From positions 1,593,488 through 1,657,487 of the forward strand of contig NZ_CP070608.1 in the NCBI RefSeq assembly GCF_017068455.1: DNA of 64,000 nt, given 5' to 3'. The notes under the pieces are model-generated. The model saw nothing but the letters and a program-made list of their open reading frames with translations. It was not told the origin of the DNA and ran no database searches. Source of the DNA: Fulvivirga lutea (GTDB lineage: Bacteria; Bacteroidota; Bacteroidia; Cytophagales; Cyclobacteriaceae). Below are positions 57,321 through 62,200 of this stretch, one piece after another (positions within the stretch are counted from its first letter, which is position 1; the number at the start of each line of letters is the position of its first letter). Made by a program: the position numbers and the translations under genes.

Positions 57321-57354
57321 AAAGAACCTTCATATTGCTATGAGAGGTTCTTTT
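57321..57354. terminator. Bidirectional terminator
   Basis: AAAGAACCTTCATA (57321-57334) pairs with the downstream TATGAGAGGTTCTTT (57339-57353) over 14 bp with one bulged G and a TTGC loop. T-runs occur on both sides. It serves the outer-membrane protein gene (plus) and the His/Met lipoprotein gene at the end of the metal operon (minus). Confidence 0.78.
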
Positions 57355-57362
57355 CAAATTAA

Positions 57363-57884
57363 TTAGTCCTCGTTTTCTTCAGTTACCGGCATTGATTGAT
57401 GCTCACTTTTCATGTTTTCATGATCTGCTTTTACTTTCTCATGTTCGCTGACCATAGCTTCATGATCAGCCTTCATAGTTTCATGTTCGGCTTTCATGTT
57501 TTCGTGTTCCTTCATCATTGATTCCATGTCTACCTCTCCGGCTGCATGCTTATCTTCCAATTCTTTGTGGCTATTTAACAAAGTTTTGTGTGAGGCTATC
57601 AATTCCTCATGTTTGGAAATCATTGCACCATGAGATGCTTCCATTGCCATGTGAAGGCTGTCTGGTGCATCACCTGACATTGCCTGATGATCTGCTAACA
57701 TCTGCTCATGTAAGCTTTCCATTTCTGAATGAAGCTTTTCCATCTCTTCATGTGCCGCTTCCATAGATTCATGGTCGCTTACTAAATTCTTATGTTCCTC
57801 TGATTCGGCAGGATTTGAGCTACATGCAGCAAAAAACATTGCGACACCCAGAGATAATGCTATAATAAAGGATTTTCTTTTCAT
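57363..57884 (-). CDS. Lipoprotein with a heptad ladder of His and Met
   Basis: A 173-residue lipoprotein (lipobox FAAC, Cys21); nearly all of the mature chain is one long predicted helix. All 18 histidines keep a seven-residue spacing in three runs of six: 31, 38, 45, 52, 59, 66; then 78, 85, 92, 99, 106, 113; then 127, 134, 141, 148, 155, 162. A Met sits three residues after the His in twelve cases (HESM, HEEM, HSEM and so on), and Leu in three of the middle run. His and Met thus take the a/d core positions of a coiled coil, an unusual core that suggests Zn, Cu or haem binding, or a pH switch. It starts 37 nt after the DUF5916 gene's stop, so it is probably in the metal operon. No known family is recognised. 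Confidence 0.8.
   Translation of the reverse strand: MKRKSFIIALSLGVAMFFAACSSNPAESEEHKNLVSDHESMEAAHEEMEKLHSEMESLHEQMLADHQAMSGDAPDSLHMAMEASHGAMISKHEELIASHKTLLNSHKELEDKHAAGEVDMESMMKEHENMKAEHETMKADHEAMVSEHEKVKADHENMKSEHQSMPVTEENED
57390..57794 (-). repeat. 21-bp coding repeats for the HxxM heptads
   Basis: The region encoding residues 31-165 is a series of 21-bp (seven-codon) units giving xxHxxMx, many with the core CATGAA or similar. Drift at other codons shows that the His/Met spacing is what has been kept. The phase slips once, between His66 and His78 (12 residues). Confidence 0.8.
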
Positions 57885-57921
57885 GTTTTAGATTGTTTTG
57901 TTAATTGATAATTACAATATA

Positions 57922-60132
57922 TTAAAATTGCTTGAGAAAAGTCAGCTTACCTATGAATTGTTGCTCTTCAAACGGAGTTTCAAACTGATCGATTCGGGTA
58001 TCATTGAATACTAGATAAATAAATGAAAGTGGTCGATACTCCCAGCTTGCCCGCACATTCCATCGACCTTGCTCATCAAAGGTATTGTACTGATAAAAAG
58101 CCGATAACTGCACTCTGGGATTTAAAGCAAACCGAGAACCAATGGTGGTGAGATGTGTGGTTAAATCTTCGCGATTCTCACCGAGACTAGTAAGATCATT
58201 ACGCTCATAATAGGCTGTTATAGCGATATGTGGAATAGGGGCTAAACGGCCAAAAGCACTAAAGGTCTGTCTCTGCCCATTATAGAAATTACCAAAATCA
58301 TAAGTACCTGATAATGACCACTTCTTAGATTGATCGGTATTATACCGAATTAAATAACGTGTATAAAAGTATTGATCTTGCGGAATTGGAATCCCGAGAG
58401 GAGCAAATTCAAAATTTATATTTTGCCATGTTGGTGTCATTGAAACTTCTACGAAGCTATTGTCTTTAAACCATGTGTATACTGGAAAAATGTAGATGCT
58501 TGCTTGTTGAAATTGGCTAGGGTCATTAAAATCATGATTGTAATTAAAAAAAAATCCCGGGTCTGATCGTCTAATCCAAGGTGTTTTTTTTGGGCGCCAA
58601 ATGTAGTACCCACCGGGACTGTGGCGAACTACATTTTTCTGAAATACAAAACCCATATCTGGGTTGTAGTCTTCCGATACTATATCAGTAATATATCCCA
58701 AATAGTACTTATTGGTACGGGTCTGCACGGCAATCCGTCCGGCAATTCCTAATGTGTCATTAGAATTATCTCTCGAGCCTGATACAAGGTAGGAGACATT
58801 CCATGTATCTTTTGGTCTTACAAACCCATCTAAAGTTATGGTTGTATTGTCACTTTGGCGAACGCCTAATTCTTGTGATTGTTGATCGAGGCGATGGGTC
58901 ACCATTACACCGATGTTGTTTTCATTCCCATAGTTTTGAAGGTAACGGCCTACCATAAAGCTGGCTCCAGCTGAATTCTCCGTTTCGGCCTGATTGATAT
59001 ATAATCCTGCAATAGACCTGTTCTCATTGCGCATAGTGTAGCGGCCACCGGCATTAATTCTGGCAGGCTCAGCGTTGAAGTTCCCTTGCAAGCCAATGGT
59101 TCTACTAAAAAATGGAACAACAGCTCTATTATTTGCCCCCGCCCAAATGCCCGAATTCTCCAGAAAGAATTGCCGTCTTTCTGGGAAGAAAATGTTAAAT
59201 CGCTCCAGGTTATTAACCGCCCGATCCACATCAGCTTGGGCGAAGTCAGTGTTAAAAGTAAGGTCTAATACTGATTGAGGATTAATAGCCCACTTTACAT
59301 CACCTCCAAATTTCATATCGCTTTTGGTTGAGGTGCCATCACCATCTTCAATCCTGTCGTATTGAAAAAGAGTATAAGGTTCTACTCTTATGTTCGCACT
59401 TGGTTCAGGAAGCTCAAGCCCTTCTAACGTAGCGGCATAGGTCATGCGATAAGGTGAGAATGATTGAGGAATGGCTGGAAATACAGTTTGCTCATAATCT
59501 CTTCGAGCTAATCGGCTGAATGTAATCCCCCAACTAGGCTGTGTGTCTTGCCCGGTATCTTCATATCTGATAGACTTGAATGGGATGGCAAATTCAGCAT
59601 AATATCCGGAATCTGTTCGTTGAGTTCGAACTGACCACAGAGCATTCCAGTCATTATCGGTATTGTTGTCATTGAAATTTTGAAGGTCTCTTTGGTTACC
59701 ATAAGGTGTTGTTTGGAAAGAAACACAATACTGTTTCAGGTTTTGTGGGTCTAGCTGTACAAAAAAAATATCGTTTTCATTAGAGTCAAAGTCTCTCCTT
59801 AAATCCTGAACCCTAACACCGCTTTTCCCTAAAGAATCCTTGCAAAATGCTCCAATATATAAATTTTTTTCATCGTAAAGCAGTCTTACTTCCGTATCGT
59901 ATAGATAATCTCTTCCCTGTCTAGGCTCCATACGAAAGAACTCTTTTACAACCTTTGCGTTTTGCCAATCACCCTCAATAAGCTTACCATCAATTTTAAT
60001 CTGTCCGGTTGCTTTTTGTGCTGTAACAGAAGGTGGGTTTTGTGGAGGTGGGAAATTTTGGTCATCTTGAGCAAAACAAGTGATAGTTTTGAAAAACACA
60101 ATAGTCAAAAAAACGTAATAGAAGAATTTCAT
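57922..60132 (-). CDS. DUF5916 outer-membrane protein with CBM9-like front
   Basis: A 736-residue exported protein. After the signal peptide (to ~22) comes a CBM9-like domain (~40-240; [48 protein letters not shown]), then the DUF5916 region (~245-736), a beta-strand-rich part likely to be an outer-membrane barrel ([29 protein letters not shown], ending [10 protein letters not shown] with the terminal Phe of OM barrels). Start at the ATG at 60132, overlapping the GTPase stop (ATGA); an ATG at 60141 would add three residues. The CBM9-like fold usually binds sugars, but co-transcription with metal genes raises the thought of a metal-complex transporter. No TonB plug is seen. Confidence 0.86.
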
Positions 60133-61355
60133 AACGGCCAATTGTCTTCAAATCCAATTCCTTCCTCCATCTCCTTAATCTCCACCTCACTCAACAAGCA
60201 TTGATCTAATTCAGATACAATTTTTTCTTTATCCATATCCATGCCGATGAACACAAGCTCGGTCATGCGATCGCCCCATTTTTTATCCCATTTGGCCTGT
60301 AACTCTTCCTGATGCTCTAGATAGTTAGGATTCATGGCACGTTCTCGCATGGAGACACTGACCCACCACCTTCCATATATTTCGGCTTTCATTGAGCCTC
60401 CAGCCTGACTCCACAGGAGGGCATATTCAGGTCTTGAGGCTAACCAGAATATGCCCTTACTACGAACCACAGATGGCGGAAAACTGCGGGCCGCATATTC
60501 TAAAAATCGTTGTGGATGAAATGGTTTAGCTTGTCGATAAACGAATGAGCCTATACCATATTCTTCTGTTTCAGGGCTATGCGAAATTCCTTTTTGCGCT
60601 AGTTCTAATTCCTTTTGCCATCCAGCTGATTGTTCTGCCACATCGTAATCAAATAATCCCGTATTGAGAATTTCTTTCGGGTCTATTTGGCTATTTGATG
60701 TTCGAATAATCTTGGCAGTTGGATTTAGTTTATGAATTGTATTTTCTAGTAATCCAAGCTGAACTTCATTGACCAGATCAGTTTTGTTAAGTAAAATCAC
60801 GTTGGCAAATTCAACCTGATCTGTAAGTAAATTAACTATGGATCGATGGTCTTGATCATCATCAGTCATGTTGCGATCCAAAACAGTATCGGCACTTCCA
60901 AAATCCTTAAAGAAATTGAAGGCATCAACTACCGTTACCATAGTGTCCAGTTTACTAAACTTGGTGAGATCATACAACTCATCGCCTGTAGCAAAAGAGA
61001 AAGTCTGAGCCACCGGAATAGGTTCAGAGATACCGGTGCTTTCAATCAATAAATAATCGAATTTGTTCATTTTTGCTAGTTTCTCCACTTCGATCATCAA
61101 ATCTTCACGAAGTGTGCAGCAAATACAACCATTACTCATTTCCACCAACTTTTCATCCGTTCTCGAAAGTTTGGCACCATTAGCTATGAGCTTTTCATCA
61201 ATATTTACTTCACTCATATCGTTGACAATCACAGCTACCTTTAATCCTTGACGGTTGTTAAGTATGTGATTGAGGAGCGTAGTCTTACCGGCTCCTAGAA
61301 ATCCACTAAGAACTGTAACCGGTAGCTTTTTTGACCGCTTTAATATATTCAGCAT
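60129..61355 (-). CDS. COG0523 GTPase, putative zinc metallochaperone
   Basis: A 408-residue G3E GTPase of the CobW/COG0523 family. The Walker [14 protein letters not shown] is at 18-30, the metal-binding CxCC (NGCICC) at 77-80, and the guanine-binding NKTD later (LLNKTDLV). The long C-terminal part with [14 protein letters not shown] and [18 protein letters not shown] matches the Zn-linked ZigA/YciC-type subgroup. Such proteins deliver zinc to essential enzymes when zinc is short. Its ATG lies 50 nt inside the MerC gene, an unusually long overlap, and its stop overlaps the DUF5916 start. Confidence 0.92.
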
Positions 61356-61719
61356 GTTTTCTTTTTGATTTTAGATTTAAATAATGGGCTCCAATGATTA
61401 CAAGAACTCCCAGGAATAGAAGGACCAATTGCACCCATAGCATGGTTATGTTTTCACTGATTTTTAATAGGACGAAACCACCAATAAAAAGTCCCATGAA
61501 ACCATAATTATGGTGTATAATGAACTGAGGCAGCATTGCTGTGATGCCAATAAGTAATAGGCTCGCAGATATGGCTAACTCTACTTGTTCATTGAGTATG
61601 AAATTAAAAATGTCAAATGTGCCTAGACCTAAAATAATGGTGGTAACCAAGCATTTCACACCACAACATAAGGAAAGACAGATCCCTAATTTGTCAATCC
61701 AAATAGATTTTTCAGTCAT
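61306..61719 (-). CDS. MerC-family membrane protein
   Basis: A 137-residue inner-membrane protein with four helices (about 13-32, 45-63, 68-86, 92-112) and a Cys-rich first helix: [15 protein letters not shown]. This is the MerC fold (PF03203), originally found as a mercury importer. No merA, merR or merP is nearby; Bacteroidota MerC-like genes often sit with COG0523 GTPases instead, suggesting metal (zinc) uptake or sensing. The C-terminus is basic. It overlaps the GTPase gene by 50 nt. The 114-nt gap upstream has a small hairpin at 61795-61811. Confidence 0.83.
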
Positions 61720-61794
61720 AGATTATCTGAAGTATACAAGACAACTTCTTCCAGCATTGGAATAATTGTTATGATTAATGTTAAACAGAGTAAG

Positions 61795-61811
61795 CCATCC
61801 ATTTTGGATGG
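61795..61811. promoter_or_regulatory. Small hairpin between the DUF2946-like and MerC genes
   Basis: CCATCCA (61795-61801) and TGGATGG (61805-61811) form a perfect 7-bp stem with a TTT loop in the 114-nt gap. No T-run follows on the minus strand, so it is a pause or mRNA-processing site rather than a full terminator. Confidence 0.4.
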
Positions 61812-61833
61812 GTATTAATAGATAAAAGGTAGA

Positions 61834-62151
61834 TTATACGAACACCGGAGGTGCGCGGGATGAAGCAACTGAACTAGCTAATATGATTAGATCACAATGG
61901 CTTGAAAGTGCAATGGTTTCTATTATTAAATCTTGATTTAGCGGAAAGGCCTTTTCAAATGTTTCAGTTTGTTTTTTGAGATAATAATCACAGAAACTAC
62001 ATTCAGTAGACAGCTCAGCAGTTTTAAAAACTAATTGATTGTCAACCTCATATTCATGAGTATGTGTTTTGCTGTGTAATGCGTATACTAATGGCAGCAG
62101 CAGAAAATAGCTGGCTAAAAACAGATGTGATATGATTACAAGCCGTTTCAA
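61834..62151 (-). CDS. DUF2946-like small membrane protein
   Basis: A protein of about 105 residues with no ATG in frame. I place the start at the TTG at 62151 (LKRLVIISHLFLASYFLLLP, a normal signal anchor); the frame also has a TTG at 62187, but that lies inside the operator palindrome. After the helix are His pairs (HSKTHTHEYE), a CSFCDYY pair of cysteines, and the ending SSRAPPVFV. This set, a CxxC and a terminal RAPP/RGPP, is typical of DUF2946-like small proteins found beside copper or zinc transport genes. It heads the metal operon. Being short with a rare start, it is the least sure gene of the set. Confidence 0.62.
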   Translation of the reverse strand: MKRLVIISHLFLASYFLLLPLVYALHSKTHTHEYEVDNQLVFKTAELSTECSFCDYYLKKQTETFEKAFPLNQDLIIETIALSSHCDLIILASSVASSRAPPVFV

Positions 62152-62179
62152 GGTAGCTAATGTAAAAGAAGATTTTTTT

Positions 62180-62200
62180 AAATGCAACAGTGTTGCATTT
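62180..62200. promoter_or_regulatory. 21-bp Fur/Zur-type palindrome, candidate zinc operator
   Basis: AAATGCAACA (62180-62189), a central G, then the exact reverse complement TGTTGCATTT (62191-62200). Both length and outer AAATG/CATTT arms match the shape of the E. coli Zur box, whose inner bases differ. It lies 29 nt upstream of the TTG at 62151 and 120 nt upstream of the divergent ABC exporter. The genes downstream on the minus strand (MerC, COG0523 GTPase) are of kinds known in Zur regulons. Confidence 0.62.

Follow-up and report, generated by a model that had tools for sequence, protein, structure and literature searches.

Five minus-strand genes of the marine bacterium Fulvivirga lutea, headed by a palindrome and closed by a histidine-rich lipoprotein gene, appear to form an operon that answers to zinc starvation. 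They lie in the 64,000-nucleotide stretch of DNA that was analyzed (the window), where an original prediction made from sequence had taken them for a zinc-scavenging operon. Positions are those of the window.

62180-62200, no strand: predicted Zur box, a perfect 21-bp (base pair) palindrome (core, 62183-62197)
61834-62151, minus strand: small exported-type protein without a Pfam family; HxxxH, CxxC, and a Pro-Pro close to the end
61306-61719, minus strand: MerC-family membrane protein
60129-61355, minus strand: ZigA-like COG0523 GTPase with a P-loop and CICC
57922-60132, minus strand: DUF5916 outer-membrane barrel with a CBM9-like domain, ATG start
57363-57884, minus strand: lipoprotein with 18 His at heptad position a in three predicted helices, lipobox Cys21
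57321-57353, minus strand: hairpin 3' of the last gene, a possible terminator with a weak T tract

The five genes and their spacing are largely as predicted: 114 nucleotides (nt), a 50-nt overlap of the MerC and COG0523 genes that recurs exactly in the locus of a relative (L061), an overlap of the COG0523 and DUF5916 genes, and 37 nt. The third of these exists but spans 4 nt, in an ATGA junction, rather than the 3 nt claimed; the ATG of this junction, at 60132, is the DUF5916 start, which the open reading frame list had placed at 60141. The listed start of the first gene, a TTG at 62187, falls within the palindrome; because of this, and because homologues at three loci (L061, L066, and L067) start 30 to 32 nt behind boxes, the TTG at 62151 is the most likely start. 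The "strong terminator" fared less well: the hairpin is real (−14.6 kcal/mol), but its T tract is poor and it was not among the entries of a terminator scan of the window. A promoter scan of the window gave 22 sites versus 21.9 expected, and its result was left unused.

The MerC protein scores 43.4 bits against PF03203 (cutoff, 27.6) and has the MerC cysteines. The COG0523 GTPase exceeds the Pfam cutoffs for cobW and CobW_C and has the P-loop GFLGAGKT and the CxCC motif CICC; it is called ZigA-like because its 547.1 bits fall short of the curated 600-bit cutoff of the NCBIfam ZigA model (NF038288). The DUF5916 protein scores 69.9 bits against PF19313 (cutoff, 22.6), and its CBM9_1 domain also lies above the Pfam cutoff; its structural model is moderate (mean predicted local distance difference test [pLDDT], 71.5; predicted template modeling score [pTM], 0.65), with CBM9 domains as the best structural matches of the N-terminal part and outer-membrane barrels matching at low TM-scores. 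The first gene was thought to be DUF2946-like, but its product has no Pfam DUF2946 match, nor any other Pfam match; among nine members of its family only one chance Pfam family turned up. His26, His30, Cys51, and Cys54 are invariant in these nine members, which also share Pro-Pro near the end.

Apart from this palindrome, the window has no perfect odd palindrome of the 10-1-10 kind. Since a Markov-1 simulation (60 runs) gave an expectation of 0.18 such palindromes per 64 kb, length alone is not decisive; recurrence is. With at most one mismatch, the box core TGCAACA-N-TGTTGCA (TGCAACANTGTTGCA) occurs at four sites in the 4.14-Mb genome, versus one for the reversed control:

window 62180-62200: head of the five-gene operon
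genome 603544: directly before a TonB-dependent receptor gene (Pfam)
genome 605986: between that TonB receptor gene and a lipoprotein gene, here named LIPO2
genome 1133967: at a ZIP transporter gene (PF02535)

Two mismatches yielded 11 genome sites versus 3 control sites; those at genome 32062 and 228682, both inside genes, were taken as chance. In the F. lutea genome together with those of 57 relatives, the 15-mer core with at most one mismatch occurs 234 times versus 14 for the controls and is present in 51 of the 58 genomes; the relatives' boxes sit at COG0523, DUF1826, and folE genes. A 7-1-7 palindrome is a usual form of the Zur box (PMC6103462, cited, like the other papers here, from available excerpts), and the operon is headed by a palindrome of this type, which it shares with zinc uptake genes. 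F. lutea has a single Fur-family protein (135 amino acids; gene at about genome 674411-674707), likely the zinc repressor Zur. Comparison of sequences across genomes shows the box, its regulon, and its zinc context, and the operon is very probably under zinc control. A literature search by title (most subscription journals lay outside it) returned no Bacteroidota Zur regulon; the regulator in a Bacteroidota zinc paper, ZntR of Riemerella, is a different one (PMC11960050, excerpt).

Two further loci of the genome concern metal uptake. At 603544-606625 (within 596000-614000), a box precedes each of the TonB receptor gene and the gene for the acidic lipoprotein LIPO2, which has Cys-Asp-Asp-Asp-Asp; these two are probably the genome's outer-membrane zinc uptake pair. 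At 3088475-3089290, genes for a ZnuA-type binding protein and ABC components stand behind a DtxR-type regulator gene with a FeoA domain; this system probably handles manganese or iron. No other ZnuA-type gene occurs in the genome; it follows the regulator gene and was left out of the tally of zinc uptake genes.

The DUF5916 barrel has a well-supported tie to zinc islands, judged from gene neighborhoods. Among the best 80 of 514 candidate loci for its subclade, an island marker gene (at identity cutoffs of our own choosing) is found in 72, a box in 29 (reversed control, 0), and either in 76; only L215, L230, L232, and L235 have neither. When we counted only the stricter zinc genes (COG0523, DUF1826, Fur-family, ZIP, LIPO2, and the TonB receptor of F. 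lutea type), a gene was present in 50 of the 80 and a gene or box in 61, or in 58 of 76 after removal of the loci of marker-donor genomes (L161, L162, L174, and L188). Among distant paralogues (20 of 24 listed at 28 to 32% identity, from 19 genomes), none has a marker and one has a box (L288), the same 1/20 on both counts; intermediate paralogues (39 to 45% identity) have a marker or box in two of six cases.

Besides DUF5916, gene products of the zinc islands include DUF3526 permeases together with an ABC-2 ATPase, as well as TonB receptors, AstE/AspA-like enzymes, MATE exporters, a protein with a subthreshold DUF4374 match, and DUF1826, Fur-family, and COG0523 proteins. In the uncultured Fulvivirga isolate 2-959 (L164), whose DUF5916 protein is about 86% identical to that of the window, the order is permease, permease, MerC, a 325-amino-acid protein, ZigA-like, FtsX-like, DUF5916, and lipoprotein; LIPO2, a box, a TonB receptor gene, and a Fur-family gene follow on the opposite strand. 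DUF3526 was not found in the F. lutea genome. No paper mentioning DUF5916, and none pairing DUF3526 with zinc, came up in a literature search that left most subscription journals outside. At L174, L189, L192, and other loci among L161-L240, a TonB receptor, a DUF4374-like protein, an ABC-2 system with two DUF3526 permeases, DUF5916, and MATE are encoded beside a Fur-family gene; this repeated cluster may export and then reimport a zinc-binding small molecule.

Known Zur regulons offer partial parallels, again as far as the excerpts go. Caulobacter crescentus Zur represses the ABC-2 system znuGHI, three TonB receptors, and zrpW, which is likely cotranscribed with a COG0523 gene, and the znuGHI promoter region is shared by znuK, a TonB receptor gene (PMC4176598). 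The islands of the relatives carry the same kinds of genes (ABC-2 ATPase with two permeases, TonB receptors, and COG0523); we infer that their permeases are homologous to those of znuGHI, because, among 14 control genomes, DUF3526 occurred in Caulobacter alone; this Zur-repressed system anchors the reading of these clusters as zinc islands. The box sequence, however, differs from that of Caulobacter, F. lutea lacks DUF3526, and the excerpted account of the regulon names no DUF5916 protein or His-ladder lipoprotein (PMC4176598). Francisella Zur controls zupT, a COG0523 gene, and a DUF1826 gene (PMC5786701), and such Zur-controlled COG0523 clusters resemble ours in having COG0523 behind a Zur-type site, zupT/ZIP in the regulon, and, in the relatives, a DUF1826 partner; in F. 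lutea the partners are instead MerC, DUF5916, and the lipoprotein (PMC2770081 and PMC5786701). The zinc exoprotein ZepA is likewise Zur controlled, lies beyond the inner membrane, and takes part in zinc uptake (PMC10957091), but unlike the lipoprotein it has a PEP-CTERM domain and is reported from Cyanobacteria, Proteobacteria, Nitrospirota, and the PVC (Planctomycetes-Verrucomicrobia-Chlamydiae) group; we rejected kinship because the excerpted source does not report ZepA from Bacteroidota.

The lipoprotein has the predicted histidine ladder: 15 of the 17 steps between its 18 His are exactly seven residues, versus a mean of 0.99 and a maximum of 7 in 20,000 shuffles. AlphaFold2 predicts three helices (residues 29 to 70, 76 to 114, and 120 to 164; mean pLDDT, 88.6; pTM, 0.77). 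Every helix carries exactly six His, and each of these occupies heptad position a; most columns at position d have Met, Leu, or Ile. Among 21 aligned members, the lipobox Cys, which follows a hydrophobic N terminus as in bacterial lipoproteins, is invariant, as are one Gly and eight His; seven more His are at least 90% conserved and the remaining three 76 to 86%. His makes up 94, 98, and 78% of aligned position a residues in helices 1 to 3 (91% in the third without position 120). In Bacteroidota, an Asp run after the lipobox Cys relates to outward-facing lipoproteins; the window lipoprotein has none and, by this rule, would be directed toward the periplasm, with LIPO2 directed outward. Csp copper storage proteins hold Cu(I) in a Cys-lined four-helix bundle. 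The predicted lipoprotein bundle would also be lined with one type of metal-binding residue, but differs from the Csp type in using His and in having three helices; its single Cys is that of the lipobox.

The lipoprotein has no Pfam or NCBIfam family above the curated cutoff and no relative in the Protein Data Bank, and it represents an undescribed family. NF047408 weakly matches 8 of the 21 members (best E value, 2.6e-5) and not the window protein. The structural fold search returned nothing at an E value of ≤0.001; the third-ranked hit, a designed zinc trimer (0.5), is not evidence, and a PADLOC PglX match (1.9e-5) was taken as a coiled-coil chance match. Within the order, 32 of 241 genomes have the lipoprotein (F. 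lutea included); for the phylum the count is 22 of 395 (F. lutea and some chance hits included).

The lipoprotein's own link to zinc appears real but partial, holding in several lineages and not for most sampled homologues. Among 20 loci, drawn from the 35 matches listed for relatives in the order, the lipoprotein gene or its operon is preceded by a box with at most one mismatch in four (L141, L142, L153, and L155), directly before the gene in the last two; by our own arithmetic (4 to 5 boxes in genomes of 5.5 to 6.6 Mb), chance would put a box no more than 250 nt from a given gene start in about 2 of every 10,000 genomes. A palindrome with two mismatches lies upstream at L154, and zinc-type genes adjoin the lipoprotein gene at L150 and L158. 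At L141 and L142, which belong to one genus, the order is box, a folE (GTP cyclohydrolase I) copy, and lipoprotein gene. The neighborhood check of the 80 DUF5916 loci was mixed: COG0523 (at least 50% identity) occurs in 23, MerC in 7, and the lipoprotein in 7, directly joined to DUF5916 in L164 and L200 and 2 to 6.5 kb away in five Aquimarina loci. In four of these loci (L211, L212, L220, and L221) the lipoprotein gene is divergent to a Fur-family gene. Of the original proposal, comparison gives good support to the operon, to control of the zinc type, and to the tie between DUF5916 and zinc, and partial support to the zinc link of the lipoprotein.

We favor the explanation that Zur controls this operon in response to zinc starvation and that the lipoprotein retains zinc at the periplasmic face of the outer membrane (probability, roughly 0.6); for the zinc-holding role of the lipoprotein taken by itself, the odds are about even. 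Under zinc shortage, the Fur-family Zur would leave the palindrome and all five genes would be switched on. The boxed TonB receptor and LIPO2 would bring zinc in, and the lipoprotein, a three-helix bundle in the outer membrane facing the periplasm with its 18 His along the seam, would bind several zinc ions; with the small HxxxH/CxxC protein it would hold zinc in the periplasm, and with that protein and MerC hand it on. ZIP, and perhaps MerC, would take zinc through the inner membrane, and the ZigA-like GTPase would allot it in the cytoplasm. The DUF5916 barrel would provide an outer-membrane step tied to zinc islands. Here, metal binding, localization, and every transport step are inferred. 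A fuller version is tentative, and we lean against it: the lipoprotein would be a zinc-holding protein of a new kind, an outer-membrane three-helix bundle with six His levels that stores or relays several Zn(II), and together with a DUF5916 barrel dedicated to zinc it would form an outer-membrane zinc route not previously described in Bacteroidota.

Several points weigh against this explanation. A protein that sequesters zinc during starvation is of use only if it also gives the zinc up. Because the core of an antiparallel bundle alternates between a and d positions, layers of three His are not assured. Relaxing the box center to NNN with one mismatch gave 5 genome sites versus 4 for the controls: this loosest form is weak in the F. 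lutea genome alone, and the evidence is gene content and the relatives. The label Zur was assigned to the Fur-family protein by exclusion. In the phylum search (29 loci with flanks of about 1.5 kb, including some duplicates and eight chance hits, L259-L261, L264-L266, L268, and L269, judged by eye), no locus has the box core and one has zinc neighbors (L242, with LIPO2-like and COG0523-like genes). The seven lipoprotein genes that lie in DUF5916 loci all lack a box of their own within 300 nt, and a box of any kind is present in just two of the five Aquimarina loci (L212 and L220). Distant homologues have lost many His. Finally, 13 of the 20 loci sampled in the order show no box in the 4 kb upstream and no recognized zinc gene among the neighbors displayed.

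These 13 loci also favor the strongest rival, namely, that the lipoprotein is a structural coiled coil (an envelope spacer or tether) riding in the operon, with His tuning packing or pH response; some members weakly match alanine-zipper and other coiled-coil lipoprotein models. We consider this unlikely: His is a poor core residue, yet it is the most conserved residue type.

Less probable still is a zinc-controlled operon whose lipoprotein is a Cu(I)/Ag(I) sponge of the SilE kind, using His-x-x-Met steps. The window lipoprotein has 12 HxxM, this spacing on helices is shared with SilE, and isolated HX2M and MX2H motifs bind Ag+ (PMC10080550, excerpt). However, HxxM varies from 1 to 12 per member while His stays at 13 to 21, so the constraint is on His rather than Met, which speaks for zinc rather than silver or copper. 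Leu or Ile often stands in place of Met at d, and unlike SilE as excerpted, the protein is a lipoprotein in a zinc-type context without conserved HxxM/MxxH. We rank the sponge below zinc because Met is not conserved. As for the original wording, "zinc (or copper)," boxes and neighbors are of zinc type wherever any are seen, and copper is not favored but keeps a small probability. Least probable is that another regulator binds the palindrome and the operon responds to another metal or stress: a single Fur-family protein identified by exclusion could serve iron, but the boxes at the ZIP transporter and TonB receptor of F. lutea and at the relatives' COG0523, DUF1826, and folE genes argue otherwise.

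The box can be used to scan zinc regulons across Cytophagales, an unnamed subclade of DUF5916 barrels is tied to zinc starvation, and the lipoprotein provides a naturally occurring, predicted helical bundle lined with histidines that can be tested directly. Two groups of homologues have settings of their own. Distant relatives at L250-L257 have fewer His, and several occupy a conserved place behind a BMP-like lipoprotein gene. In one genus (g61), whose five genomes have one box each, four of five loci (L145, L146, L147, and L149) have a boxless homologue next to a RimK-like gene; the L145 copy has a Zn_protease domain.

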